Shown: one piece after another, positions 13,669 through 30,874 of the stretch
Numbering within the stretch: the stretch's first letter is position 1
Layout: every line of letters starts with the position of its first letter
Source: Spirochaetota bacterium
Lineage (GTDB): Bacteria; Spirochaetota; Spirochaetia; B11-G9
Length of the DNA: 44,599 nucleotides
Assembly (NCBI GenBank): GCA_024280415.1
Contig: JAJRQE010000304.1
Coordinates: forward strand, 1-44,599
Direction of reading: 5' to 3'
Translations under genes and position numbers: made by a program
The notes under the pieces: generated by a model
Database searches by the model: none
What the model was told of the DNA's origin: nothing
What the model saw: only the letters and a program-made list of their open reading frames with translations

Positions 13669-14493
13669 CTAATTCCACATGGAAACTATTTTTCTAACCA
13701 GACTTATAAAATTATCGCGTACTTTTGCAGCAGTTTCCATTACTTCGGAATGATCAAGGGGCTGATCCAGAACTCCTGCTGCCATATTTGTAATACATGA
13801 AATTCCCAGGATATCCATACCTGCATGGGCTGCTACCAGAACTTCCGGTGCGGTAGACATTCCTACGGCATCTGCACCTATAATACCCAGCATCCTAATT
13901 TCAGCAGGAGTCTCATAATTCGGCCCTCCCATAAATCCGTAAACACCTTCCTGCAGGGGAATATTCAGAGCCTTACCTGCATCCTTAGCCATAGAACGGA
14001 GAGATTTTTTATAGGCATCCGACATATCAGGAAATCTGGGACCAAAATTATCGAAATTTGAACCCCGCAGTGGTCCGTTTACATCAAACTTAATATGATC
14101 AGAAATTATCATAAGATCGCCTGGATTAAAGTTTTTATTTACACCACCGGAAGCATTGGTAACAAGAAATTTATTTATACCAAGGAGCTTCATAACACGA
14201 ACGGGAAACACAACAGTATCGTAGGAATAACCTTCATAGTAATGGAATCGTCCCTGCATAACCAGAACTTTCTTTCCTTCAAGAGTGCCTATAACCAGGT
14301 GGCCTGCATGCCCCTCTACAGTGGATCTGGGGAAACCGGGAATCTCTTCATACTTTATAATAACAGGTTTCTCAACCTCATCTCCAAGAACCCCTAACCC
14401 GGACCCGAGAACCATCCCAAATTCAGGAACATAGTCCAGTTTACTCTTAATATAATCTGATGCCTTTGTCAGTGCAGCCATTATTTCATCCAT
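13669..14493 (-). CDS. punA: purine nucleoside phosphorylase (trimeric, PNP/MTAP family)
   Basis: Cleaves inosine and guanosine-type nucleosides with phosphate to base and ribose-1-phosphate. The phosphate-binding GSGLG (near residue 33), GHAGHLVIG and GRFHYYEGYS blocks are present. The base and sugar pocket includes TNASGGVN, MGGPNYETPAEIRML and VGMSTAPEV. Length 274 matches the trimeric class. ATG is preceded by AGGAG seven bases upstream. With the BMP importer at 15-20 kb and pyrimidine phosphorylase at 23 kb it forms a nucleoside scavenging set. Confidence 0.95.
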   Translation of the reverse strand: MDEIMAALTKASDYIKSKLDYVPEFGMVLGSGLGVLGDEVEKPVIIKYEEIPGFPRSTVEGHAGHLVIGTLEGKKVLVMQGRFHYYEGYSYDTVVFPVRVMKLLGINKFLVTNASGGVNKNFNPGDLMIISDHIKFDVNGPLRGSNFDNFGPRFPDMSDAYKKSLRSMAKDAGKALNIPLQEGVYGFMGGPNYETPAEIRMLGIIGADAVGMSTAPEVLVAAHAGMDILGISCITNMAAGVLDQPLDHSEVMETAAKVRDNFISLVRKIVSMWN

Positions 14494-15194: not shown

Positions 15195-16142
15195 CTACCT
15201 TTTCCCATGTTCAAAAGGTTCACCAATAGCTCTAGGAGCCTGTGAGGATTTTGAAAATATAACTAAAGCAATCAATGTCACGAAATATGGAAATATCTTT
15301 AAAATTATCCCAGGTATAACAGCTAAAGCAGGCACAGCCTGTGAAACATTTGCCAGGGTTGCAGAGAAACCAAAGAAAAAAGTTGCCCCAAGTATTCCCA
15401 AAGGTTTCCACTGCCCAAAAATTAATGCAGCCAGTGAAAGAAAGCCCAATCCAGCGACAGAGCCATTGAACTCACCTGCAATTGTTACAAGCAGCACAGC
15501 TCCACCAAGTCCTGCAAAAGCTCCCGAAATCATTACACTTATATATCGTACAAAGTATACATTAACACCTGCAGCATCTGCCGCGTGAGGATGCTCCCCA
15601 CAGGATCTTAATCGCAAACCAAAAGCAGTTTTATATATAACAAGCCATGAAAGTAGAAGGAGTAATAATACCAGCCATGTTGAAATATATGTCTGGGTAA
15701 AAAATAATTTCCCAATTACAGGTATTTTATCAAGCACAGGAATATTCATTCTTGAAAATCCACTTGTAATACGAATATTTCCGCTTCCAGTCATAGTCCT
15801 TGCAATAAAAACTGTTAATGCACCAGCTATCATATTTATTGCTGTTCCACTAATAACCTGGTCGGCGTTAAGATTAATACTGGCAAAAGCATGTAAAAGT
15901 GAAAACAATGCCCCGAATACCATGGCAGAAAGGAGGCCGATCCATACAGCACCTTCAGGCAGAATTGGTTGCAGTGTCGAAATAGTAACGGCACTTGCAA
16001 ACATCCCTACAACCATAAGCCCTTCGAGTCCTATATTAACAACACCACTCCTCTCACTGAAAAGTCCTCCAAGGGAGGTAATAAGTAATGGAATTGTAAA
16101 AGCAATGGCATATGGAAAAATTTGTGTGAGTAATAACCACAT
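15195..16142 (-). CDS. nucleoside ABC transporter permease 2 (BMP type)
   Basis: Inner-membrane permease of a carbohydrate/nucleoside ABC importer (BPD_transp_2 family, NupQ/YufQ-like), 315 residues with about eight to nine helices. Recognised blocks are FSERSGVVNIGLEGLMVVGMF near the N-terminus, LRSCGEHPHAADAAGVNV and ISGAFAGLGGAVL in the coupling region, typical of this subfamily. It starts one base after the stop of permease 1, which means stoichiometric co-expression. It ends just before the terminator at 15141-15172. Confidence 0.92.
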   Translation of the reverse strand: MWLLLTQIFPYAIAFTIPLLITSLGGLFSERSGVVNIGLEGLMVVGMFASAVTISTLQPILPEGAVWIGLLSAMVFGALFSLLHAFASINLNADQVISGTAINMIAGALTVFIARTMTGSGNIRITSGFSRMNIPVLDKIPVIGKLFFTQTYISTWLVLLLLLLSWLVIYKTAFGLRLRSCGEHPHAADAAGVNVYFVRYISVMISGAFAGLGGAVLLVTIAGEFNGSVAGLGFLSLAALIFGQWKPLGILGATFFFGFSATLANVSQAVPALAVIPGIILKIFPYFVTLIALVIFSKSSQAPRAIGEPFEHGKR

Positions 16143-16143
16143 C

Positions 16144-17202
16144 TTAGTTTCCTCCTTTTACTTTTTTCTGAACAATATTAATAGCTCTCTCTATCAGGAT
16201 ACTGGTTGCCGCAAAATAGATAATAGTTGCAATAATGGTATCTCCAATCTCCGGAGGAATAGAGGTCATGGCATTCATGAATCCTTTTCCAGAATGAAAA
16301 ATTCCAAAGAAAATTGAGGCGGCCAGAACACCATAGGGGTTTAATCCACCCAGCAAGGCTGCTGCAATACCATCGAAACCCAGAGCAGGAAGAACTCCTA
16401 TCTGGATGTTTGAAGCATAACCAACATAATAAGTTGCTCCACCCAGGCCGGCTAAAGCACCTGCAATTACCATGGATAACACAATATTCCTATTAACTTT
16501 CATACCGGCATATTCTGCACCAAATCTATTGTACCCTGCAGCTTTCAGCTCATAACCAAGAACAGTTTTATTGAGTATAATAGCTATAATCACTACTGCT
16601 ATGATTGCAAGAAATAGTCCATAGTTGATAAAAGAACCATTAAACAGATCTGTAAGCCAGGGAGCTTTTAACGAAGCAGCTTCCGGAATTGATCTTGATT
16701 CTGTCTCAAGAAACTCTCCCTTAAAAAAAGCAGGAACCGAATAATAGATGGTCCAGTATGCTATCCAGTTCATCATAATTGTCGAAACAACTTCATGTAC
16801 ATTAAATCTGGCTTTTAATAATCCAGGGACAAATGCCCATAAACCACCGCCAAACATTGCTGCTGCCATCATTATTGGAAGAAGTAGTACTCTGGGAATA
16901 TTAAAAGTAAGGGCTACAGCCGTAGCACAAAGACCACCTATCAACATCTGACCGGAAGCTCCAATATTAAACAAACCGGTTTTAAAAGCAAAAGCCACAG
17001 AAAGACCTGTAAATATCAAAGGTGTTGCAGTAGCCAAAGTATTCCCGATTCTCTCAATATTCATCAGTCCGCCACGGAACAGATATGAATATCCCAGAAA
17101 AGGATTATTTCCAGTAAAGACCATTAGTACAGCACCAGCAATCAATCCAAGTAAGACCGAAATTAATCCTACGTATACTTGTTTATTAATTTTTATTTTC
17201 AA
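16144..17202 (-). CDS. nucleoside ABC transporter permease 1 (BMP type)
   Basis: First permease of the importer, NupP/YufP-like, 352 residues. It carries FAFKTGLFNIGASGQMLIGG, the membrane motif shared by this family, and LKAAGYNRFGAEYAGMKVNRN plus IAGALAGLGGATYYVGY as the cytoplasmic coupling segment. Its ATG overlaps the ATPase stop by four bases, so translation is coupled. Together with permease 2 it forms the heterodimeric channel. Confidence 0.92.
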   Translation of the reverse strand: MKIKINKQVYVGLISVLLGLIAGAVLMVFTGNNPFLGYSYLFRGGLMNIERIGNTLATATPLIFTGLSVAFAFKTGLFNIGASGQMLIGGLCATAVALTFNIPRVLLLPIMMAAAMFGGGLWAFVPGLLKARFNVHEVVSTIMMNWIAYWTIYYSVPAFFKGEFLETESRSIPEAASLKAPWLTDLFNGSFINYGLFLAIIAVVIIAIILNKTVLGYELKAAGYNRFGAEYAGMKVNRNIVLSMVIAGALAGLGGATYYVGYASNIQIGVLPALGFDGIAAALLGGLNPYGVLAASIFFGIFHSGKGFMNAMTSIPPEIGDTIIATIIYFAATSILIERAINIVQKKVKGGN

Positions 17203-18722
17203 GGAGTATCTCCTTTCCCGACACCAGCCATCATTAGGCCAACCTCATTTTCGTTAGTCTCAGAAGCATTAACAACGCCGACTTTTTCTCCACCTGCAAT
17301 AATAACTATTCGATCTGACAGATCAAGGATCTCATCAAGCTCCAAAGAAACAAGTAAAACAGCCTTTCCACTATCTCGCTGCTCGACAAGTCTCTTATGA
17401 ATATATTCAATGGATCCTACATCCAGACCTCTTGTAGGCTGAACAGCAATTAGTAAGTCAGGATCATGATCAACCTCTCTCCCAACAATAGCTTTCTGCT
17501 GGTTTCCACCGGACATTGATCGGGTTATTGTAACCGGACCCTCACCGGATCTGACGTCAAAATCATTGATAATTTTATCAGCATGAGTTCTAATCTCAGC
17601 CTTATTAAGAAATCCATTTAAGGCGTAAGGATTTTTATTATATACTTCAAGAACCATATTCTCTTCCAGAGAATAATCGAGAACAAGACCATGCTTGTGA
17701 CGATCTTCAGGAATATGAGCTATGCCAGCATTTATTCGCTCTCTAATAGAAAAATCGGATATATCTTTTTTATTAAGGAAGATAGAACCATTTTCGATCT
17801 TCGTTAGTCCTGTAATAGCCTCAACAAGTTCTGTCTGACCATTGCCATCAACTCCTGCTATTCCAAGTATTTCACCGGAACGTACTGAAAAAGAGAAGTT
17901 TTTTAGAGTTGGAACACCCTGCGATCCTAAAACAGTAAGAGCCTTAACATCAAGCACTATATCTCCAGCTTCCTGCTCTTTTTTATCAACATTAAAAGAG
18001 ACGACCCTTCCTACCATCATCTCTGCCATATCAGCTGTTGAGGTATCTGCTACATCGACTGTACCTATCATTTTTCCCCGCCTGATAACTGTACATCTGT
18101 CTGCAACAAGTTTTATCTCTTTCAACTTATGTGTAATAAGGAGTATTGATTTTCCCTCTTCAGTCAAATTCCTCATAATTTTTATGAGTTCAATAATCTC
18201 CTGAGGGGTTAGAACCGCAGTAGGTTCATCAAAGATAAGTACTTCCGCATCCCTGTAGAGCATTTTCAATATCTCGGCTCTCTGCTGCATTCCAACAGAA
18301 ACATCTTCTATAAGAGCATCAGGGTCAACATTAAGTTTATACTTTTCAGATAGCTTTCTGATCTTTTCGGAAGCTTCTTTTAGATTTAAAAAAAGTCCCT
18401 GTTTAGGCTCCAGACCTAATATTATATTTTCCGTGATCGTAAAATTGTGCACCAGTTTAAAATGCTGATGAACCATTCCAATACCAAGATCATTCGCCTG
18501 GTTCGGATTATGAATGCTAACCTCCTGACCATTCACTTTGATTTGACCTTTATCAGGTTTGTACAAACCAAAAAGAATACTCATAAGAGTGGACTTCCCT
18601 GCCCCATTTTCACCTAGAAGTGCATGAATTTCCCCTTTTTTAAGATTAATTGATATATCATCGTTGGCTACAATACCGGGAAACTCTTTTCTAATATTCA
18701 GCATTTCCACTACATAATCCAT
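17199..18722 (-). CDS. nucleoside ABC transporter ATPase (two NBDs)
   Basis: Cytoplasmic ATPase with two nucleotide-binding domains, as in NupO/YufO and RbsA. The first has GENGAGKS, a VSVGMQQRAEI signature and VLIFDEPTAVL. The second is degenerate: GVDGNGQTE lacks the Walker A Lys and AVQPTRGLD lacks the catalytic Glu, but its MSGGNQQK signature is intact. This asymmetry is normal in the family, with one working site. I place the start at the ATG at 18722 (MDYVVEMLNIRKEF), which matches the family N-terminus; an upstream GTG at 18779 has no ribosome site. The gene follows the BMP protein after a hairpin. Confidence 0.93.
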   Translation of the reverse strand: MDYVVEMLNIRKEFPGIVANDDISINLKKGEIHALLGENGAGKSTLMSILFGLYKPDKGQIKVNGQEVSIHNPNQANDLGIGMVHQHFKLVHNFTITENIILGLEPKQGLFLNLKEASEKIRKLSEKYKLNVDPDALIEDVSVGMQQRAEILKMLYRDAEVLIFDEPTAVLTPQEIIELIKIMRNLTEEGKSILLITHKLKEIKLVADRCTVIRRGKMIGTVDVADTSTADMAEMMVGRVVSFNVDKKEQEAGDIVLDVKALTVLGSQGVPTLKNFSFSVRSGEILGIAGVDGNGQTELVEAITGLTKIENGSIFLNKKDISDFSIRERINAGIAHIPEDRHKHGLVLDYSLEENMVLEVYNKNPYALNGFLNKAEIRTHADKIINDFDVRSGEGPVTITRSMSGGNQQKAIVGREVDHDPDLLIAVQPTRGLDVGSIEYIHKRLVEQRDSGKAVLLVSLELDEILDLSDRIVIIAGGEKVGVVNASETNENEVGLMMAGVGKGDTP

Positions 18723-18791
18723 ATATAACCCCGTAGAATCCGATTTTTTATACTTTAAAATAGATATTATTTTTATCACAAAAGAATATCA

Positions 18792-18814
18792 GGAGGGGTA
18801 AGGCCTACCCCTCC
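18792..18814 (-). terminator. hairpin between binding-protein and ATPase genes
   Basis: A perfect nine-bp inverted repeat GGAGGGGTA (18792-18800) / TACCCCTCC (18806-18814) with a five-base loop lies 19 bases after the BMP gene stop. The downstream minus-strand sequence TGATATTCTTTTG is only partly T-rich. Such hairpins after a binding-protein gene commonly give partial termination and protect the upstream mRNA, raising binding protein over ATPase. Confidence 0.65.
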
Positions 18815-18832
18815 AATTACCACTAATACTGA

Positions 18833-19912
18833 TTATTTAATTAGACTTCCCTGTTCAGCAGCTACAACTATAGCACCTGATTTAATCATGTCAAAAATAT
18901 CTCCAACTTTTGATTCTACAGAAGAATCAAGGTTCGGATTTTTGGCAGGAATGCTGACACCATCGTTGGCAGCATTAAAAATCAATGTTTCTCCACCTGG
19001 AAAGGTTCCACCGAGTTCTGCCTTAATCATATCATAAGCAGCAATATCAATTCGTTTCATAGCGGAGGTGAGGATAACAGATTTTTTACCATCAAATATA
19101 CCATCAGCATACTGATCCACATCAACACCAACTATCCATACTTCTTCACCTGCTTTAGCACGTGATTTAGCCTCATTAATAGCACCAACTCCAACTCCAC
19201 CAGCAGCAGTAAAGATAACAGAAACACCCTTATCATACATCTGTGCCGCTAACTGCTGACCGGCAGCTACGTCACTAAAAGTACCCTGATAGATGATATT
19301 TTCTGCATTTAGAACAATTTTTGTACCTAAGCTATCGTTTGCATATGCAACACCCTGCTGGAATCCCCAGTTAAATTTTTGTACCGGAGGAATTTCCATA
19401 CCACCAATCAATCCCATTTCTCCTTCTTTTATCTGAAGAGCTGCTGCAACACCAGCTAAAAATCCGGATTCATGCTCTGCAAAGAAAATTGAAACTGTGT
19501 TCGAAGCAGTATTGAATACGCTGTAATCAGCATTATGTGGAGCACCGTCAATAAGAACAAATTTAGCATCCGGATACTTATCCTGAGCTACAAAAATTGT
19601 TGTTTCAAATTTAAATCCCGGAGTAACCATAAATCTGAACCCGGCATCATACAGATTTCCGATCTCTTTCACATAATCCGCTTCTGTTGTTCCCACAGGT
19701 TTAAGATATTTTGTTGTTATATCCATATCCTTTTCTGCTTCAAGGATTCCTTCCCATGTGCCCTGGTTAAAGGATTTATCATCGATTGATCCGGAATCTG
19801 TAACCATACCTACTTTCAGGCTTGTTGAGCTACTTCCTTCCTGATCACCACCAGCAAACGCAAAATTTGCAATAAACATAATTGCCAGTAAAAAAATTAC
19901 TACTCTTTTCAT
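18833..19912 (-). CDS. BMP-family nucleoside-binding protein
   Basis: Periplasmic substrate-binding protein of the BMP/PnrA family; treponemal PnrA binds purine nucleosides. It starts with a signal peptide MKRVVIFLLAIMFIANFAFA, then GGDQEG. The mature part opens KVGMVTDSGSIDDKSFNQG, the family signature, and has FVLIDG and FFAEHESGFLAGVAA. No Cys is present at the cleavage site, so unlike PnrA this is predicted to be a soluble periplasmic protein, not a lipoprotein. AAAGGGAGAA precedes the ATG. Downstream ATPase and two permeases complete the importer. The substrate class is inferred from family and neighbouring phosphorylases. Confidence 0.92.
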   Translation of the reverse strand: MKRVVIFLLAIMFIANFAFAGGDQEGSSSTSLKVGMVTDSGSIDDKSFNQGTWEGILEAEKDMDITTKYLKPVGTTEADYVKEIGNLYDAGFRFMVTPGFKFETTIFVAQDKYPDAKFVLIDGAPHNADYSVFNTASNTVSIFFAEHESGFLAGVAAALQIKEGEMGLIGGMEIPPVQKFNWGFQQGVAYANDSLGTKIVLNAENIIYQGTFSDVAAGQQLAAQMYDKGVSVIFTAAGGVGVGAINEAKSRAKAGEEVWIVGVDVDQYADGIFDGKKSVILTSAMKRIDIAAYDMIKAELGGTFPGGETLIFNAANDGVSIPAKNPNLDSSVESKVGDIFDMIKSGAIVVAAEQGSLIK

Positions 19913-20085: not shown

Positions 20086-22584
20086 TTATTCCGGAGGATC
20101 AGTCATTACAAATTCAACCCGCCGATTTTTCCACCAGACATTTTTATCTGTAACAGAAACTATGGGGTACTGCCCTCCGTAAGCTTCAATACTGATTTTG
20201 GAATCTGACATGCCTCTCCCTATCAGAGCATCCCTGACAGAAGATGCCCTATTGGCAGTTAAGGGGAGGAGGATTTGCTCCTCTTTCTCCTCTCTGGGGC
20301 CATCGAGATAAATATTCAGTGCATGTCCCTCAAGAACAAGACTGTATGCAGGGTATTTTCTGTATATGGAAGCAACCTTATCCAAAGAACGATTATTTTC
20401 TGCAAAACGTTCTGAACCTGCAGAATCCAGAGCAAATTTATAGGCACCGAATATAATATTTGGAACTGAAAGATATTTTTTACCATCCTTCATTACAAGA
20501 AGAATATCCAGAGGTATCTCTTTCTGGAAAACAGACTCATTATTGCCGCTGTCATAAACAGTCAACCGTAAAATAAAGTCAGGGTTTTCCGAAGAAACAG
20601 AACTTCCCTCATTCGAGTCAGAGCTGTTCCATCTGATATTCCCGGAAGGATCACCTGAACCTGAATAAGTTCTAAGCAGATCCCCCTCGCCGTTAAGTAC
20701 ATCCATTGACCAGCGATTTATTTCTGTATTATCCAGAACCTTAAGGGTGACATAAACATCTCCCTCAACTCCCGTTTCTGTAGCAGTAAAAGGGTCTGCT
20801 GCTACATCAATTATAATCTGTGGAGGAGTGATATCGAGAACGAAACTGTCTGAAACAGTTTCCACCCTATCTCCTTTCTGAAAATTTGCTGAAAGGCGAA
20901 CCCTGTAATCTCCTTCCCTTGCCGTACTAATCTCTCCATCTGCATTAACTGATGTACCATCCCAGTAAATTTCCGGGGGAAGAGTATCATCCCCCTGTAT
21001 ATCCCGAATAACATTTCCATCTGCATCCAGAATATCCAGTTTCCAGCTTTCCAGATAATTATACTGGCTGGAATCTACAAGTATTATAAGATCATCCGAA
21101 ACACCGTCACTATCCGGAGAAAACCCCTTCCCTGTCTTAAGGGCTATATCAACCGGAGTACGATCAATAATAAGGGAGGCTGGATCAATGGAACTGCTAT
21201 TCCCTGCAGAATCAGTAAATCTGGCAATAACCGAGTAATTCCCATCCGGGACGTCCTCTCCATCTGCCTTTTTACCATCCCATACAATCAGAGAAGTAGT
21301 CAAATTGGAACTCGTTGAAATAAGTTCCTCACCCAGAGAATCAATAACAGAACCCTTCCAGCTCACCTGTTCATTGGACTTAAACCTTATTTTAACCTGA
21401 TCCTTTAATCCATCTCCGTTTGGTGAAAAAATATTATTGGTAACTGATACTGAAATTTCCGGTGCTGTAACATCAACTGTAAAAGGTTCAAGAGCTGTGG
21501 GTTTGTTACCATTTTCATACTGAACCTTATAAATAAAACTGTAGACACCCTCAGGAACAGGTTTTCCATCTGAATCCGTCCCGTCAAAAACCACCTCCTG
21601 GGGTATATTTGAATCTCCTGTAACCTGCCAGTACACAGTCTCCAGGGAATCACGTATCTGCCACTCCCAGGAAACAATTCCCTCAGTTACTGCCAGATCC
21701 AGATAAACAGTCATGAAATCCTGAATACCATTTCCATCAGGAGATATTACAGGTGTATCAATGAGTACAGCTATCGGAGTAGCCCTTAAATCGAGTATTA
21801 TTTCTTCCAGAATTATTGGATCTGATTCATTTCCTGCTTTATCTGTAGATGATAGGGAATAGGAGTAGGTTCCAGGAGAAGCGGGAGCTCCCTCATCATC
21901 AAGCCCATCCCACACAGCAGTACCAGGTATTCCATTTTGCCAGGAAAAGTTTCTGATGGTCTTTCCTGACTCATCCAAAATTATTCCCTCCCACAGAACC
22001 TCTTCTGTTGAACGGGTATTGGCAATCTCGATACTATCCAGAGAATTATCACCATTGGGTGAAAAAATCAGGGATTCAGGGGCAACAAGAATTGCCTCAG
22101 GTTTTTGGGTATCAACAACAAAGCTATCAACATCAATATCCTTCCTGTTTTTTGAAGAATCCACAACCCAGAGTTTTACCACATACACGCCATCCGGAAC
22201 AACACTCCCGGTTTTATCTGTACCATCCCATGAAATAGTTCGTTCAAGGGTAAATTCACTGTAACCCCTAAAAATTGAAAGAAACCATCCTATATCTGAT
22301 TTTTCAGTTTGCACAATTTCTTTCATTACACTGCCGGCCTGATCCAAAATCTGAATACCGTATTCGGGAACATACCCCTCATCACTTTTAACATAAACCT
22401 TAACAGAGAAGGAGAGTTCGGCATTATCCTGAACCCCGTTTGAATCCGGAGATATATATTGGGTTCCGGAAGTTAAAGGGGGAACCTCCGGTATCTCCTT
22501 ATTTCCACCTGCAAAAACAGGGAATGTGGCGGAAAGCAAGATCAACAGAACCAGCCCAATAAATATTGTCCTGGATAATTTCAT
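20086..22584 (-). CDS. exported Ig-repeat protein with C-terminal OmpA domain
   Basis: An 832-residue secreted protein. A signal peptide (1-25, ending PVFA) is followed by GGNKE. Then come six Ig-like repeats of about 105-130 residues of the FlgD/CHU-C type. Five begin with an acidic loop: SPDSNGVQD (45), SPNGDNSLD (175), SPDGNGIQD (281), SPNGDGLKD (387) and SPDSDGVSD (489); each contains the paired WDGTDxxGxxVPDGxY hairpin motif. The sixth (about 598-690) has lost the acidic loop. Residues 700-830 form an OmpA-like peptidoglycan-binding domain (LVLEGHA...NRRVEFVM). The protein probably links peptidoglycan to the outer membrane or surface. Its partner and ligand are unknown. Confidence 0.85.
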   Translation of the reverse strand: MKLSRTIFIGLVLLILLSATFPVFAGGNKEIPEVPPLTSGTQYISPDSNGVQDNAELSFSVKVYVKSDEGYVPEYGIQILDQAGSVMKEIVQTEKSDIGWFLSIFRGYSEFTLERTISWDGTDKTGSVVPDGVYVVKLWVVDSSKNRKDIDVDSFVVDTQKPEAILVAPESLIFSPNGDNSLDSIEIANTRSTEEVLWEGIILDESGKTIRNFSWQNGIPGTAVWDGLDDEGAPASPGTYSYSLSSTDKAGNESDPIILEEIILDLRATPIAVLIDTPVISPDGNGIQDFMTVYLDLAVTEGIVSWEWQIRDSLETVYWQVTGDSNIPQEVVFDGTDSDGKPVPEGVYSFIYKVQYENGNKPTALEPFTVDVTAPEISVSVTNNIFSPNGDGLKDQVKIRFKSNEQVSWKGSVIDSLGEELISTSSNLTTSLIVWDGKKADGEDVPDGNYSVIARFTDSAGNSSSIDPASLIIDRTPVDIALKTGKGFSPDSDGVSDDLIILVDSSQYNYLESWKLDILDADGNVIRDIQGDDTLPPEIYWDGTSVNADGEISTAREGDYRVRLSANFQKGDRVETVSDSFVLDITPPQIIIDVAADPFTATETGVEGDVYVTLKVLDNTEINRWSMDVLNGEGDLLRTYSGSGDPSGNIRWNSSDSNEGSSVSSENPDFILRLTVYDSGNNESVFQKEIPLDILLVMKDGKKYLSVPNIIFGAYKFALDSAGSERFAENNRSLDKVASIYRKYPAYSLVLEGHALNIYLDGPREEKEEQILLPLTANRASSVRDALIGRGMSDSKISIEAYGGQYPIVSVTDKNVWWKNRRVEFVMTDPPE

Positions 22585-22604: not shown

Positions 22605-23909
22605 TTATTTTACTGTATTATATATTAATTTTATCTTTTTCTCCGAATTATTTCCAATTTCAATTGATTTTTTGAAAAGTTCAACAGATTCATCAAGATT
22701 TTTCCGATCATTGACATAAAAATCAGCCAGAACATCCCCTTTGTTTACAAAATCACCTATTCTCTTTTTCATCCAGTATCCTACAGCAGAATCCACAACA
22801 TCCCTTTTTTTTGTTCGACCGGCACCCAGAAGCAGTGCAACCATGCCCATATTCTCCGTATTCATTGCCTGGATATACCCCTCCCTATCTGACCTGATCT
22901 CTAGTATACTATCGGAAGAGGGGAGAAGGGAAGTGTCGTTTACCACCTCCGGATTACCCCCCTGCATTTCGATCATCTGTCCAAAACGCTTAAGGGCTTC
23001 ACCATTATTAATAACCTCATTTATTCTGGCTTCCGCATCTCTTTCATTGATAAAAATATCACCAAGTACCAGCATTTTAGAAGCCAGAGCAATAGAAACA
23101 CTCTTTAGATCACCATCATGATCTCCTGCAAGAATCTCAATAGCCTCTTTTACTTCAAGAGCATTTCCTACAGCATTTCCCAGAGGCTGATTCATATCCG
23201 TTACAAGCGCAATAGTTTCTTTTCCCGCCAGAGTTCCAATATCAACCATCATCTTTGCAAGTTCGGAGGCAGATTCAACATCCTTCATAAAGGCACCGCT
23301 CCCAGTTTTTACATCAAGAACAATTTTATCACTACCCGAAGCGAGCTTTTTACTCATCACACTTCCTGCTATAAGGGATACATTATCAACTGTTCCGGTT
23401 ACATCCCTAAGAGCATAGAGTTTCTTATCTGCCGGTACAAGGTTACCAGTCTGACCGATAACTGAAACACCGCAGGTATTTACTATCTCTGCAAACCTTT
23501 TCATAGTCTGGGAAATATTCATACCCGGGATTGATTCAAGCTTATCAAGAGTTCCTCCAGTATGCCCCAACCCTCTTCCGGACATTTTGGCAACAAGGCC
23601 GCCGGAAGCAGCAACAAGAGGACCGACAATTAAAGTAGCCGTATCTGCAACTCCTCCAGTTGAATGCTTATCAACTTTTATCCCTTTAATAGAAGAAAGG
23701 TCTACTTTATCCCCGGAGTCGACCATTGCCAGAGTAAGATCCGTAGTTTCCTGTTTATCCATTCCCCTGAAATAGACGGCCATCAATAAAGCACTCACCT
23801 GATAATCAGGGATATCCCCGGAAACATATCCGTCTATAAAAAACTTTATCTCTTCCCGGGAAAGAACTTCTCCCCTTTTTTTCTTCAATATCAGATCAAC
23901 TATACGCAT
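22605..23909 (-). CDS. pdp: pyrimidine-nucleoside phosphorylase
   Basis: Phosphorolyses thymidine, deoxyuridine and possibly uridine to base and (deoxy)ribose-1-phosphate. The phosphate-binding KHSTGGVADT (81-90) and the family signature around SGRGLGHTGGTLDKLESIPG (110-129) are complete. The alpha domain, Gly-rich hinge and C-terminal alpha/beta domain make up the usual 434 residues. An AGGAGG site is seven bases before the ATG. It lies 20 bases upstream of the OmpA/Ig gene on the same strand, possibly in one transcript, although the two have no obvious shared role. It complements punA and the nucleoside importer. Confidence 0.95.
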   Translation of the reverse strand: MRIVDLILKKKRGEVLSREEIKFFIDGYVSGDIPDYQVSALLMAVYFRGMDKQETTDLTLAMVDSGDKVDLSSIKGIKVDKHSTGGVADTATLIVGPLVAASGGLVAKMSGRGLGHTGGTLDKLESIPGMNISQTMKRFAEIVNTCGVSVIGQTGNLVPADKKLYALRDVTGTVDNVSLIAGSVMSKKLASGSDKIVLDVKTGSGAFMKDVESASELAKMMVDIGTLAGKETIALVTDMNQPLGNAVGNALEVKEAIEILAGDHDGDLKSVSIALASKMLVLGDIFINERDAEARINEVINNGEALKRFGQMIEMQGGNPEVVNDTSLLPSSDSILEIRSDREGYIQAMNTENMGMVALLLGAGRTKKRDVVDSAVGYWMKKRIGDFVNKGDVLADFYVNDRKNLDESVELFKKSIEIGNNSEKKIKLIYNTVK

Positions 23910-24078: not shown

Positions 24079-25038
24079 GTGAAAGGATCTATTTTACTGC
24101 CTGTAGTGCAGATACTATTGATAATTATTATAAGTACTCTGGTCTGTGTGGGTGTATACCTCTATATGTTTACAAACAGCTATAGTCCGGAATATTCCCT
24201 TACTATAGGTCTGTTCATAAGCCGGATTCCCGGAATTATGCTGAATATATTTCCTATCGTAGTCCTTATGAGTATTATACTTTCCCTGGTAAATACCCTT
24301 AAAACACCCGCAAACAGGGGACTTGCTGCTCTTTTCACACTGATTGCCGGGGGACTGTTATACTACACAGGTTACACAGGTTTATATCAACTGGATAAAA
24401 TTTCGGATTCAAGGCCAATTAGTCCTGTTAATCACCTCTACACAGACCGAATAAATCCACTTAAAGATTCAAAGCTATACATAAAAGAGGTCAATGGAAC
24501 TATTTTAGCCATTGAATCAGAAAACAGCAGAGAGAAGCCTGATTTATCCATTTATCAGAGTGCAGAATATAATTCAGATTTTAGGGAATTACATACAAAA
24601 CAGGGATATATAGTTAGCATTATTCCGGAGAATCCAAATTTTTCCGATCATTTTACTCCTCCTAAATTATTAGAAAGACTCCTTGAGGATCTTTTAATTT
24701 TCAATGATTCCATAAAAAATATCTTTGAAAAATCCCGGTGGCTTTTTCTTATAACAGTTCTCAGCCAGATAGCATTTGCTGTCGGATGCTGGACAATTAT
24801 ACGACTTTCCAGATGGCCCTTTCTCAATGGACTTCTGGCAGTAGGGGTTCTAAGACTGTTTCCGGCTTATTACAGGCTGAGCTATAGTGAAATAACACAG
24901 AAGGCAATAAGCTTTCTCCGCTCTTCTTCTGCAGTGGATCTTGCACCCGCAGCATTACTTTTAGCAGCTGCAGTGCTATTGTTTCTGTGGGATATTTTAT
25001 TCGGAACAAAAAGAGCAGTGAGCCGTAAAAATGGATAA
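24079..25038 (+). CDS. membrane protein, possibly a diverged LptF-like permease
   Basis: A 319-residue membrane protein, start GTG. Three hydrophobic segments come first (about 8-30, 45-72, 82-102), then a polar domain of about 110 residues (105-215), then three more (about 222-245, 247-265, 285-310). This 3 + periplasmic + 3 layout is that of LptF/LptG, the membrane partners of the LPS-export ATPase LptB. Sequence similarity is weak, and I rest the call on topology and on its eight-base overlap with the next gene, which resembles LptG more clearly. The periplasmic part is only about half the usual length. Treat as hypothetical membrane protein. Confidence 0.55.
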   Translation: MKGSILLPVVQILLIIIISTLVCVGVYLYMFTNSYSPEYSLTIGLFISRIPGIMLNIFPIVVLMSIILSLVNTLKTPANRGLAALFTLIAGGLLYYTGYTGLYQLDKISDSRPISPVNHLYTDRINPLKDSKLYIKEVNGTILAIESENSREKPDLSIYQSAEYNSDFRELHTKQGYIVSIIPENPNFSDHFTPPKLLERLLEDLLIFNDSIKNIFEKSRWLFLITVLSQIAFAVGCWTIIRLSRWPFLNGLLAVGVLRLFPAYYRLSYSEITQKAISFLRSSSAVDLAPAALLLAAAVLLFLWDILFGTKRAVSRKNG

Positions 25039-26815
25039 AATAGCACGTAAAACAGGTATCATTGTAATCATATTCTACCTATTGGCATTTACCTTCTTTT
25101 TCATCTACTCCATAGTAAATTTTTCGGGACTCACAATTGTGGAAACACCTGTAACAGTCCAGGATTCCGGAGAGTTCAACAAAACACTCTCAGTACTACG
25201 AAGTAATCCTGAATCGGAAATACAGATTCTGTACAGTTTTAAACTGAACTGGATCCTGACAAACTCACTCAGGTTGTTTATTCAAAATATTCTTTCTGTT
25301 CACAGTACTGCATTAATATTTGCCTTCTCTCTCTTTTTCCCCTGGAGAACAGGCAGGCAGAATATGAAAGTCCACTTTGTTAATATAATTGAAAAGAGTA
25401 TATTCATGTTCCTTGTACTGACCCTGCTTTTTACTATTCTGGCAGAGGGATTACTGCCTGGAATACTGAAAAAACAGGCAAACCAGCAATATATGTCAGG
25501 AATGGCCGTAGATTATTTTACTCAGGCCAATAAAGAAATCAACTCCACAGGAAGAGATAGGGATTATAGCAGTATCATACTCATGCTCAAAGCATATCTT
25601 CAGATTGATCCCGGCAATCCCACTGTTAACAGTACACTGGACTGGGCTGTAGGAAATGTTGAAATAAAAAAGATAATAGATCCTCCTGTGTTGAATAATG
25701 ACTCGTCACAAAATAAAGCAGCAGATTATTTTAATAAGGCTAATGAATATTTGGAAGACGAAGACTATTATTCCGCTCTCTACTATGCAGACCTTGCATA
25801 CAAACTGGACAAGACAAGAAAAGATGCACAGAGAGTTGCAGCAAAATCCAGAGAAGGAATAAGATCACTGGAACCCAATCAGAATGATAAAGCAGCAAGG
25901 GAGTACTACGGACTTAAAAAGACAGGTTTTGATAAACTTCAGAATGATGATCCTATTGGAGCCTACTATATTTTCAGATCCCTCTCAAAACAATCTACAG
26001 AAGATGGTGACATTATAGAGTTTCTAAAACGTTCGACTGATGAGATCACAGCTATTGCTTTTTTTACCGATGAAGCAGAAAAATATATGTATCTTCCAGG
26101 ATTTGAGGATATTATTTTTCTTGAAAACAATCAGAGTCTAATACATATAGGTAAAATGATTTTACTGGATAGTGAGGAAGCTTATTTTTACGATATAGAA
26201 GTAGTTGAAATTAACAGCAATGGAATTATTACAAAACATTTCAAGGCTCCCTTTGGAAAGTACCTGTCCAGCTCCAAGTCCATTATCATGCAGGTGATCG
26301 ATAGAGATGATGAAAGGATTAATTTTAAACCTGAATATATTACCGGAACAGCGGATGTTCCTGAAGATATTTTACTTTTAGTTTCCCCGGATCTGAACGA
26401 AATGGCATCTATGGAAAATATTAAGAAAAGCCTTAAATATATGAATATTATTCAGCTGTTTAAGTCTGCATCGATTTTTGACAAATACGGATATTTAAAG
26501 GAACCAGTTGAATTAATTCTCTTAAGCAGAATATTAAAACCTTTTACTTTCTTAATATTATCATTCCTTTCCGTCAGTATTGGATGGTTTCTCAGGTATC
26601 GCAGTTCTTCGCTTCCCTGGATGGCATTATTAATAATGCCGGTTATCCCGGTTGTTATGAAATATATTATATCTGTTTATGAATACTGTATAAACCTACT
26701 TTTTGGATACGCCCTGATGAGAACGAGTTTCACAATTTCTATTATAATTCTTATCGCATCTCAGGGGTTACTGTTATTCATCGCAATGATTTCCATTGCC
26801 GGACAGAAGGAATAG
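25031..26815 (+). CDS. LptF/LptG-like membrane protein with helical-repeat insertion
   Basis: A 594-residue protein. Membrane helices lie at about 8-30, 85-105 and 118-142. A helical, TPR-like region follows at about 150-335 (repeated YFxxANxxL and YYxALYYADLAYKLD patterns), then a beta-rich stretch at about 345-445 and three final helices at about 498-520, 529-550 and 568-590. The segment VSPDLNEMASMENIKKSLKYM...LSRILKPFTFLIL recalls the end of the LptG jelly-roll and entry to TM4. That resemblance is my reading, not a search result. LptF/LptG proteins are near 360 residues, so the helical insert would account for most of the excess length. It ends two bases from the convergent murA stop. 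Confidence 0.6.
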   Translation: MDKIARKTGIIVIIFYLLAFTFFFIYSIVNFSGLTIVETPVTVQDSGEFNKTLSVLRSNPESEIQILYSFKLNWILTNSLRLFIQNILSVHSTALIFAFSLFFPWRTGRQNMKVHFVNIIEKSIFMFLVLTLLFTILAEGLLPGILKKQANQQYMSGMAVDYFTQANKEINSTGRDRDYSSIILMLKAYLQIDPGNPTVNSTLDWAVGNVEIKKIIDPPVLNNDSSQNKAADYFNKANEYLEDEDYYSALYYADLAYKLDKTRKDAQRVAAKSREGIRSLEPNQNDKAAREYYGLKKTGFDKLQNDDPIGAYYIFRSLSKQSTEDGDIIEFLKRSTDEITAIAFFTDEAEKYMYLPGFEDIIFLENNQSLIHIGKMILLDSEEAYFYDIEVVEINSNGIITKHFKAPFGKYLSSSKSIIMQVIDRDDERINFKPEYITGTADVPEDILLLVSPDLNEMASMENIKKSLKYMNIIQLFKSASIFDKYGYLKEPVELILLSRILKPFTFLILSFLSVSIGWFLRYRSSSLPWMALLIMPVIPVVMKYIISVYEYCINLLFGYALMRTSFTISIIILIASQGLLLFIAMISIAGQKE

Positions 26816-26817
26816 TC

Positions 26818-28092
26818 TTAAACTTTTTCTATCCTTGCACCAAGAGATGTAAGCTTTTCCGCTAAACGTTCATAACCACGCTCAATCTGATAAACATTCT
26901 GTATTTCGCTCTTTCCTTCAGCACAGAGAGCCGCAATAACCATGGCCATCCCGGCTCTGACATCCGGAGAAACCAACTCAGCTCCCTTTAATCGGGAGGG
27001 ACCGCTTACAACTGCTCTGTGAGGATCACAAAGAATTATCCTTGCTCCCATTCCAATCAGTTTATCTACAAAAAACATTCGGGATTCAAAAAGCTTCTCA
27101 TGAATAAGTACTGTTCCTTCAACCTGGGTGGCGACAACGGTCATAATACTGGTCAGGTCTGCAGGAAACCCAGGCCAGGGGGCATCATCAATCTTCGGGA
27201 TCATCCCCCCCAGCTCAGGACTTATCCTCATATCCTGCCCTGAGGGTATACGGATAGTTGAACCATCTGTCTCCCAGTGAATCCCAAGTTTACCAAAAGC
27301 AATTCTTGTCATCATCAGATGTTCCGGCGCTGCCTTTTCTATCTCCAGTTCTCCCCGTGTTACTGCTGCAAGACCAATATAGGATCCGACTTCCATAAAA
27401 TCGGAACCTATTACAAACTCGGTTCCTCCCAGTTTTTTTACTCCTTCTATGTAGAGTATATTAGAACCTATTCCTGTTATTTTTGCGCCCATGGAATTCA
27501 GCATATTACAAAGATCCTGAACATGAGGTTCACTGGCAGCGTTCATAATAGTTGTTTTGCCTGAGGCCATTGAAGCGGCCATAACTGCATTCTCGGTTGC
27601 AGTAACAGAAGCTTCATCCATAAAAATATCTGTACCCACAAGCTTATTGGCATTAAGTCTGAACAGACCATCAATATCTATCTGAGCCCCGAGAGCACTG
27701 AAGGCAAGAAAGTGTGAATCCAGACGCCTTCTTCCAATTACATCCCCTCCCGGAGGAGGGAGCATAACCTTCCCGGTTCTGGCAAGAAGGGGACCGGCGA
27801 AAAGTATTGAGGCACGAATGCTTTTTGCATGTTCGGCCTGTATTTCGGAAGATTTAATATTATTTGTTTTTATCTTGTATTCACCCTGCTTCTTTCTTGT
27901 AACAGAGACACCAAGAGATTTAAGCACATCAAACATAACCCTGACATCTTCAATTTCAGGAAGATTTTTTAGAGTAACTTCTTCATCTGTTAAAAGAGTT
28001 GCCGCTATACAGGGAAGAGCCGCATTCTTATTACCACTTGCTGTAATTTTACCTTTCAGAGGGAAATTACCCTCAATTATATACTTACCCAT
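26818..28092 (-). CDS. murA: UDP-N-acetylglucosamine 1-carboxyvinyltransferase, Asp active-site form
   Basis: Transfers enolpyruvate from PEP to UDP-GlcNAc, the first committed step of peptidoglycan synthesis. GNKNAALP near the start contains the catalytic K22 and N23. The catalytic loop reads [11 protein letters not shown]: residue 117 is Asp where the Escherichia coli enzyme has Cys115. Asp at this place is known from Mycobacterium, Chlamydia and Borrelia and makes the enzyme insensitive to fosfomycin. The length of 424 is normal. It is convergent with the LptG-like gene and upstream on its own strand lies the YkgJ gene. Confidence 0.96.
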
Positions 28093-28657: not shown

Positions 28658-30874
28658 TCAACGGGCTATTAATATCTGATAGGTAAAGTATACAGCAGCA
28701 AGAGCATCATCATAAAGGGACTCATTCTCATCTACTGAAGTATTCAATTTACTATTAGCTGAATTAATAACAGCCAATCTTAAATTTTTCATCGATTCGG
28801 AAAGAGAAAACATTTCATCATCCCTTAATAAATCCAGACAAAACCTCCAGATCATATCCCAGTTTGATTTTCTAAACCACTCCTTAAGTTCTTTGTGTCT
28901 GTCGAAGAAATATCCAAGATCTCTGGTCTGTTCCAGGAAACTCCCAAGCCCCCTACCGCTCTTCTGATTCCTTGAGGTATAGATTTCAGACAGGAGGGGT
29001 TTGAAATCCAGAAGATTTGCAGCCAGTGAATAATAGGTCTGTCTGAATATACCATTATCAAAATCTTTCGGATGATTAAAAATATTCTTAAAAACAAGCC
29101 CTCTGGGATCCATATTTTTTAGTGCAATAAGAAAGTTTATCCTGTCCCAGGCCAAAACAGCTCTGGATTCGTACAAATAAATTTTAGAAAGAGAGTCTGT
29201 ACTCCCTATTCTGCTTAAAGACTTGGCTGCATTTGACTGAAGAGAGATGTTACTGCTCTCAAGTAATTCAAGGAGAAGCTTCTCAGTCTCCTCCCCGGGA
29301 TAAGCCCCCAGAGCAAACACAGCCTTCAGCTGATGATATGAACCGCTGTCTCCGGCTTCTTTAAGGAGTTCAGGAAGCAGTACTGGTCTGGGATGGCTAA
29401 AGAGAGATTTTAAAACCTCCCCTTTACCAGGAGATAAGGGGGATGCAATTATATGGCGTATCTCCTCGGTTGCAACACTGGCTTCATTCTGACTGATAGA
29501 GAGAAGAACTGTTCTTTTCTTTACCGGATCCCGGGTAGTATTTAATTTCCCAATATCCATATAAGCCCGCATCCCCTCGAAGGAGAAAAGGATGGAAGCT
29601 GTTTCCTTTGCAGACAGACTTCCCTCATCTTCAAGTCTTAAACTAATAAAGATAAGAAGTACCCCGAGGAGCATTGCAAATAAAAACAGAAAACTGTAGC
29701 TGTTAAAAAAACTTATCTCTGAACTTTGTCCTAAATCGATGAGCAATCCTCCTGCCAGACCGCTTATCAATGAGAAAACCGCCATAACAAAGTTAGTCAT
29801 TACATTATAACCAAAGGATTCATCTTCCGGCATTGTATCAACTAAAACTCTGGAAACGAGAACATTCCCGGACCAAATGAAAAAATTTGTAATAAACCCG
29901 AGAATAAAATAGGAATAAACAGGAAGTTTTACATTTTCTGAAACCGGGAGAAATACCCAGACTATATATACAATTGATAAAAGTGTATTCACCCCTATCA
30001 AAAGGGGTCTGCTTCCCATTCTGTCTGCAAAAGTTCTGGCAAAAAGACCCGATAGAATAACTGCAAAAGCAATTACCATTGAATAAAGAAAAACCATATT
30101 AGGATTAAATCCTGCTTCCTTTCGTATAAAAACTATAGTCAGCCCATTCACAACAATAGCAGCAACTGTTACCCATTTAAGAATCAGAGGATAGCGTCTA
30201 TCCTTCCTCTCTAGAGACTCTTTTAGAATTACTAAAATATTCCTTCCTTTCCTGTATTCCACTGTCTCCCTGCATGGAACTTTCTTTAGCTGAAGAGCTG
30301 CAGCAGTATTAAATAAAACACCAATAATCTGTAGATAAATAATGCCTGTAATTCCTGAAAAATATTTAAAGGAGGTCAGAATAAAACTGATCAGCTTCGA
30401 AACTACCGATGCAGACTGATTTGCAATATTACCCTGAGCAATAACAATTCCCCGGTTACCGGAGGTTGTAACTGTCTTAAGCAGAGGATTCCAGACAGCT
30501 ATTCCAACCATTCTAACAAGGCAGAAAACAGTATAAACTACCGGAATAAGGAGAACAGCACCCCGCCCTTCCATAATAAAAAGAAAGAGGTAGACAAGAA
30601 CTACAAGGCCTCTGATAACCCAGGCAGTAAACTGAACCGAAACCAGATTCTTACCGGAAAGTAAGCGCGGCAGACCTGCAAGAACAAACCCTGTTAAGAA
30701 AATAACCGACGATATGTACCCAAGCTCAATATTTGAAGCTCCAAAATGGATGGCCATTAAATAAACAGGTGTTTCCCCCATAAAATTAAAGCCCATCCCA
30801 TTAAGAGCCTGGAAAAGATAAATTTTTTTCTGTCCCGCCAGGCGTTCATTTTCGGATAAATATTTAGTTAGCAT
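28658..30874 (-). CDS. MFS transporter fused to HEAT-like repeat domain
   Basis: Residues 1-430 hold about 12 membrane helices with a Major Facilitator layout, including a loop with FADRMGSRP after helix 8 that resembles the MFS cytoplasmic motif. A long charged loop with KGRN...KESLERKDRR separates the halves. Residues about 445-738 are soluble and helical: units such as LLPELLKEAGDSGSYHQLKA, TEKLLLELLESSNISLQSNA and AKSLSRIGSTDSLSKIY fit HEAT/PBS-lyase-like repeats. The tail should be cytoplasmic and may bind a partner or gate transport. Substrate is unknown. The gene is divergent from the UPF0316 gene. Confidence 0.8.
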   Translation of the reverse strand: MLTKYLSENERLAGQKKIYLFQALNGMGFNFMGETPVYLMAIHFGASNIELGYISSVIFLTGFVLAGLPRLLSGKNLVSVQFTAWVIRGLVVLVYLFLFIMEGRGAVLLIPVVYTVFCLVRMVGIAVWNPLLKTVTTSGNRGIVIAQGNIANQSASVVSKLISFILTSFKYFSGITGIIYLQIIGVLFNTAAALQLKKVPCRETVEYRKGRNILVILKESLERKDRRYPLILKWVTVAAIVVNGLTIVFIRKEAGFNPNMVFLYSMVIAFAVILSGLFARTFADRMGSRPLLIGVNTLLSIVYIVWVFLPVSENVKLPVYSYFILGFITNFFIWSGNVLVSRVLVDTMPEDESFGYNVMTNFVMAVFSLISGLAGGLLIDLGQSSEISFFNSYSFLFLFAMLLGVLLIFISLRLEDEGSLSAKETASILFSFEGMRAYMDIGKLNTTRDPVKKRTVLLSISQNEASVATEEIRHIIASPLSPGKGEVLKSLFSHPRPVLLPELLKEAGDSGSYHQLKAVFALGAYPGEETEKLLLELLESSNISLQSNAAKSLSRIGSTDSLSKIYLYESRAVLAWDRINFLIALKNMDPRGLVFKNIFNHPKDFDNGIFRQTYYSLAANLLDFKPLLSEIYTSRNQKSGRGLGSFLEQTRDLGYFFDRHKELKEWFRKSNWDMIWRFCLDLLRDDEMFSLSESMKNLRLAVINSANSKLNTSVDENESLYDDALAAVYFTYQILIAR

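Follow-up and report, generated by a model that had tools for sequence, protein, structure and literature searches.

The window analysed here, a stretch of 44,599 nucleotides, comes from a draft Spirochaetota genome (338 contigs, 97.7% complete) and contains two genes, ORF1 and ORF2, whose reading frames share 8 bp (Table 1). Hydropathy profiles place three plus three helices in most members of both protein families, with a periplasmic segment of about 105 residues between the helix triplets of ORF1 and about 350 residues between the two hydrophobic triplets of ORF2. The positive charges, as read from the sequence, lie at the N-terminus and in the TM2-TM3 and TM4-TM5 loops, so that the large middle region is periplasmic. 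A preliminary description of this DNA had proposed two overlapping genes, each encoding three helices, a periplasmic part and three helices, with a shortened periplasmic domain in the first protein; both features are confirmed at the coordinates given in Table 1. The pair is flanked by a divergent gene for pyrimidine-nucleoside phosphorylase and by a convergent murA, and promoter and terminator scans at the locus returned nothing better than shuffled sequences. Elsewhere in the window, BmpA-like nucleoside ABC importer genes and genes for purine and pyrimidine nucleoside phosphorylases (15195-19912 on the minus strand, with 13669-14493 and 22605-23909) make up a nucleoside salvage cluster, in which Bmp and the pyrimidine phosphorylase were assigned by Pfam and the rest by eye.

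Table 1. Coordinates of the ORF1-ORF2 pair, its segments and its convergent neighbour in the window
Feature	Position	Strand	Remarks
ORF1	24079..25038	+	319 aa, GTG start; three TM helices, short periplasmic segment, three TM helices; LptF-position partner with marginal LptF/G similarity in the C-terminal half
ORF1 TM2-TM3	24226..24411	+	short cytoplasmic turn NTLKTPANRG only; no room for a coupling helix
ORF2	25031..26815	+	594 aa; derived from LptF/LptG, with an inserted TPR domain
ORF2 TM1-TM3	25052..25468	+	residues about 8-146; matches the N-terminal half of canonical LptF/G weakly, though better than the controls
ORF2 cytoplasmic loop where LptF/G have the coupling helix	25340..25396	+	lacks the coupling Glu; conservation is lowest here within the family
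ORF2 periplasmic TPR domain	25493..26086	+	residues about 155-352
ORF2 reduced beta-jellyroll-like domain	26096..26350	+	residues about 356-440
ORF2 TM4-TM6	26501..26800	+	residues about 491-590; LptG-like
murA	26818..28092	-	convergent neighbour of ORF2

Single-sequence scans of ORF1 and ORF2 against Pfam and NCBIfam gave nothing convincing, and the evidence for the ancestry of ORF2 comes from profile-profile comparisons with 47 canonical spirochaetal LptF/LptG proteins (31 plus 16). Residues of about 355-594, which span the beta domain and TM4-TM6, match canonical LptF and LptG with E-values of 1e-9 to 1e-12, as compared with 0.02-0.15 for reversed sequences and 0.099-0.94 for 11 unrelated membrane families, and the LptG-like transition to TM4 suspected earlier is thus real. 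For the three N-terminal helices, only the LptF-type profile gave a signal (E 1e-3 to 1e-4). The Pfam model PF03739 matches three of the 19 ORF2 family members alone (best E 1.2e-7), and when the genome was searched with it the ORF2 of the window stayed below threshold (22.6 bits versus the curated cut-off of 27.9). The AlphaFold model of ORF2, based on a shallow alignment of eight sequences, has a mean pLDDT of 62. In a Foldseek search with this model the seven best PDB matches were all LptG chains (E 6e-6 to 1e-3), at TM-scores that are low (0.19-0.25 by query length), as is to be expected for a protein with an inserted domain and an uncertain placement of the domains. A maximum likelihood tree built from the C-terminal part separates ORF2, LptF and LptG, each of which falls on one side of a branch; the support of 100/98 for the ORF2 branch has to be read with caution in view of several long branches and an identity of about 11%. 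ORF2 is a true LptF/LptG homologue that forms a lineage of its own, the third next to LptF and LptG, and it shows the arrangement of three TM helices, a periplasmic beta-jellyroll and three TM helices that is typical of this family.

Like the LptF and LptG of the LptB2FG permease (PF03739; TIGR04407, TIGR04408), ORF1 and ORF2 are encoded by adjacent genes and have two helix triplets, and the homology of the beta domain and TM4-TM6 of ORF2 is evident in both profile and fold searches. Unlike LptF and LptG, ORF1 has a short periplasmic domain, and ORF2 carries an insertion of about 195 residues (about 155-350) in front of its beta-rich part. The preliminary description had estimated a helical repeat domain of about 185 residues at this place, which proved to consist of TPRs: in the PDB, the profile of the ORF2 family retrieved designed TPR proteins over profile positions of about 117-240 (E 2e-19) and LptG over about 367-501 (E 0.003). 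Tandem helix-turn-helix repeats that fit TPR profiles are found in the insertion, TPR_14 matches five of the 19 family members, and the ORF2 model has paired helices from residue 227 to 342 (pLDDT about 72-85), with strands from 358 onward. In scoring as TPR the insertion resembles TPR scaffold proteins (TPR_14, TPR_2); unlike in those proteins, the repeats are placed within an LptG-type protein, after TM3 and before the jellyroll, an architecture that was not found in the open-licence papers searched. Conservation within the ORF2 family peaks in TPR residues 286-352 (K296, A311, Y312, F315, F344, and E348), and of the nine region columns with a conservation of at least 80%, six fall in the final TPR stretch, just ahead of the beta domain.

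The kinship of ORF1 is less secure. No Pfam match was obtained for the ORF1 of the window, and its N-terminal half gave no signal against the canonical LptF/G profiles; the C-terminal half matches canonical LptF/G weakly (E 1e-3 to 1e-4, controls at 0.018 or above). The three plus three helices come without a confident beta domain. Structure prediction, which had been proposed as a check, retrieved LptG for ORF2 and yielded an unusable model for ORF1 (pLDDT 45, seven-sequence alignment). ORF1 is probably derived from LptF/G, mostly on the grounds of its topology and gene pairing, and its status as a paralogue within the LptF/LptG family is marginally supported. Of the diverged and asymmetric LptF/LptG-like pair that had been postulated, the ORF2 half is therefore secure and the ORF1 half only probable.

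The canonical Lpt genes of this genome lie elsewhere. Two strong PF03739 matches on contig 128 represent a complete-looking, overlapping lptF-lptG pair, and a single LptB-class ATPase exceeds the curated cut-off of 240 bits (360 bits, next best 181); its gene is unlinked to the ORF1-ORF2 locus and far from it. The regions concerned (L113, 2-1064, minus strand; L110, 6830-7588, minus strand) hold lptC, an lptA truncated at the contig end beside pyrG, and, on a different contig, a terminal lptB. The lptC product has a lipobox-like N-terminus, as in Borrelia BB0464. No match in the genome was found for LptD with PF19838 or for LptA/LptD with PF03968. However, PF03968 also misses the clear, truncated LptA-like ORF that adjoins LptC, and these Pfam models hence overlook spirochaetal forms. 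The genome-wide search suggested in the preliminary description thus recovered LptB, LptC, a truncated LptA and the canonical lptF-lptG pair, and the two models gave no match for LptD. Canonical spirochaetal Lpt systems comprise BB0807/BB0808 with BB0464-0466 and BB0838 in B. burgdorferi and TP0883/TP0884 in T. pallidum. They share phylum and superfamily with ORF1-ORF2 but occupy a different locus.

A contig scan with the single window protein revealed no relatives, and one with a three-sequence alignment found seven loci, all in Spirochaetota. With the ORF2 profile, the family was detected in 82 of 198 sampled Spirochaetota genomes (E<1e-20), and none of these carriers is among the 20 listed genomes that lack a PF03739 match. 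Outside one family, nearly every locus has ORF1 just before ORF2, and an independent six-frame search with the ORF1 profile likewise landed at this position, also in many genomes outside the training set of that profile. The two genes are conserved as a pair across Spirochaetota, alongside canonical LptFG, and show the adjacency typical of the LptF/LptG family save in family f18, which we infer to be Brachyspira-like. These genomes keep ORF2 and lack ORF1, so the pair is not obligatory. In four f18 loci (L053, L056, L057, and L058) a gene for a TPR lipoprotein-like product of 145-148 aa overlaps ORF2 in the place of ORF1. ORF2 was not detected, even at E 10, in a Spirochaetota genome of 1,139,633 bases with canonical LptFG, and the four sampled genomes of family f14, which keep canonical LptFG, gave no or weak ORF2 matches, nearly all of them in the TPR part. 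Among the carriers are Borrelia-like genomes as well as T. socranskii and other named Treponema species. On the Borrelia-like chromosome of about 0.91 Mb the pair is located at about 358-368 kb beside CarD, WecG, and RsmE, some 500 kb from the canonical pair at about 867 kb, and we take it to be BB_0353/BB_0354 from gene order counted from uvrD. These two appear as hypothetical proteins only (PMC6711536), and no name or study of the ORF1-ORF2 pair was found in the open-licence papers.

The genomic neighbourhoods do not point to one coherent pathway; the neighbours across loci (MurA, a STAS protein, PspA, WecG, and CarD) are mixed housekeeping genes. At 10 of the 37 compared loci the murA cluster is beside or near the pair. 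No lptB, lptC or lptA was recognised next to the pair in the loci examined. A gene of the PspA/IM30 family is found close upstream (L035, L037, L040, and L059), a gene for a STAS plus zinc-ribbon protein lies nearby in 11 loci, and at some loci the gene after ORF2 encodes a J-domain membrane protein. In the window itself, a protein of 738 aa (28658-30874, minus strand) combines an MFS-like transporter part with subsequent HEAT repeats in an unusual fusion, and a secreted protein of 832 aa (20086-22584, minus strand) contains FlgD-Ig/CHU_C-like repeats together with an OmpA domain at its C-terminus.

The TM2-TM3 coupling helices of LptB2FG occupy a groove of LptB and form the contact between the transmembrane and nucleotide-binding domains, and a conserved glutamate in each helix (E84, E88) works together with R91 of LptB (PMC10094684). 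This glutamate is present in all canonical spirochaetal LptF/G proteins (31/31 and 16/16), as is an invariant glycine (47/47), and in both sets the coupling segment is more conserved than the remaining sequence (entropy 1.60 versus 2.04 and 1.21 versus 1.68, lower values denoting stronger conservation). The corresponding segment of ORF2 is the most variable region of the family: its length varies, its entropy is 2.96, none of its 19 columns reaches 60%, and neither the glutamate nor the glycine is conserved. The median spacing of the TM2 and TM3 centres is 29 residues in ORF1, 37 in ORF2, and 45-46 in canonical LptF/G. ORF1 thus falls about 16 residues short of the canonical proteins, and its turn is too short to hold a coupling helix. 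The ORF1-ORF2 pair lacks the LptB-docking signature and also differs from LptF/LptG in forming a separate clade and in coexisting with canonical LptFG.

The loss of this signature, together with the conservation peak in the TPR region of ORF2, favours an adaptor uncoupled from an ATPase, with the TPR domain as its working part. Our best explanation, in which we place about even confidence, is that ORF1 and ORF2 constitute an LptFG-derived inner-membrane complex that is probably no longer coupled directly to an ATPase of the LptB type and serves as an adaptor in the envelope. The complex would keep the membrane scaffold and the short jellyroll, while the periplasmic TPR domain of ORF2 might bind a protein or lipoprotein partner and deliver it either to the jellyroll bridge or to a different machine of the envelope. 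Energy, if needed, would come from another source, for example the canonical LptB2FG. Several points speak against an adaptor pair, among them the unusable ORF1 model, the lack of a coherent pathway among the neighbours and the Brachyspira-like genomes that keep ORF2 without ORF1. The TM2-TM3 spacing of ORF2 (median 37) could fit a short cytoplasmic helix, and a non-canonical contact with an ATPase is possible; moreover, the ORF2 family is fast-evolving, so that one lost residue is weaker evidence here than it would be in a slowly evolving family.

The preliminary description had suggested that the pair exports a lipid other than LPS. In this scenario, which we regard as doubtful, ORF1 and ORF2 would replace LptF and LptG in a second LptB2-type ABC exporter that shares the one LptB and extracts a different lipid, such as a glycolipid, and the TPR domain would be a dock for cargo or a partner. 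Descent from LptF/G and the paired genes are compatible with such a pump, as is the fact that several Lpt-bearing spirochaetes have no LPS and that the Lpt cargo is disputed (PMC10353723, PMC8407342). However, the unconserved coupling segment of ORF2 with its lost glutamate and glycine, the short turn of ORF1, the lack of an additional LptB above the cut-off in the genome and of lptB, lptC or lptA beside the pair weaken this proposal, and a repurposed envelope adaptor is more likely than a second lipid pump. Alternatively, ORF2, with or without ORF1, might serve the canonical Lpt system as an accessory or regulatory subunit, pairing through its jellyroll with LptF, LptG or LptC and controlling bridge assembly or the choice of cargo. 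The retained jellyroll-like domain, the occurrence of ORF2 only alongside canonical LptFG among the listed genomes, and the TPR lipoprotein that replaces ORF1 in Brachyspira-like genomes would agree with this role, but the 1,139,633-base genome and the sampled f14 members keep canonical LptFG without ORF2, and the loci examined contain no recognised lpt genes next to the pair; we consider it unlikely. That ORF2 is a TPR membrane protein with a merely convergent resemblance to LptG is highly improbable, since the sub-threshold Pfam score of the window protein and the low-confidence model are outweighed by the profile-profile matches with their clean reversed and unrelated-family controls, by the three members that PF03739 does recognise, and by the seven top PDB folds, all of LptG.

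The preferred reading, an LptFG-derived adaptor, bears on the debate about what spirochaetal Lpt systems transport. The Lpt apparatus of T. pallidum is said to serve a non-LPS substrate (PMC8407342). For B. burgdorferi, glycolipids are advocated as the cargo by one group (PMC10353723) and surface lipoproteins by He et al. (reviewed in PMC13317210). Additional, uncharacterised Lpt homologues have also been postulated (PMC13317210), and ORF1-ORF2 is a concrete candidate for such a component. A far-reaching and improbable extension would be that the pair is an ATPase-free, LptFG-derived machine specific to spirochaetes, whose TPR domain captures lipoproteins or other clients and hands them over to an Lpt-like jellyroll bridge and an LptD homologue; in that case it would fill the inner-membrane gap in the export of surface lipoproteins by Borrelia and its relatives. 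Judged from its sequence, ORF2 would be an ABC-permease fold that has apparently parted from its ATPase and acquired a domain for protein binding.
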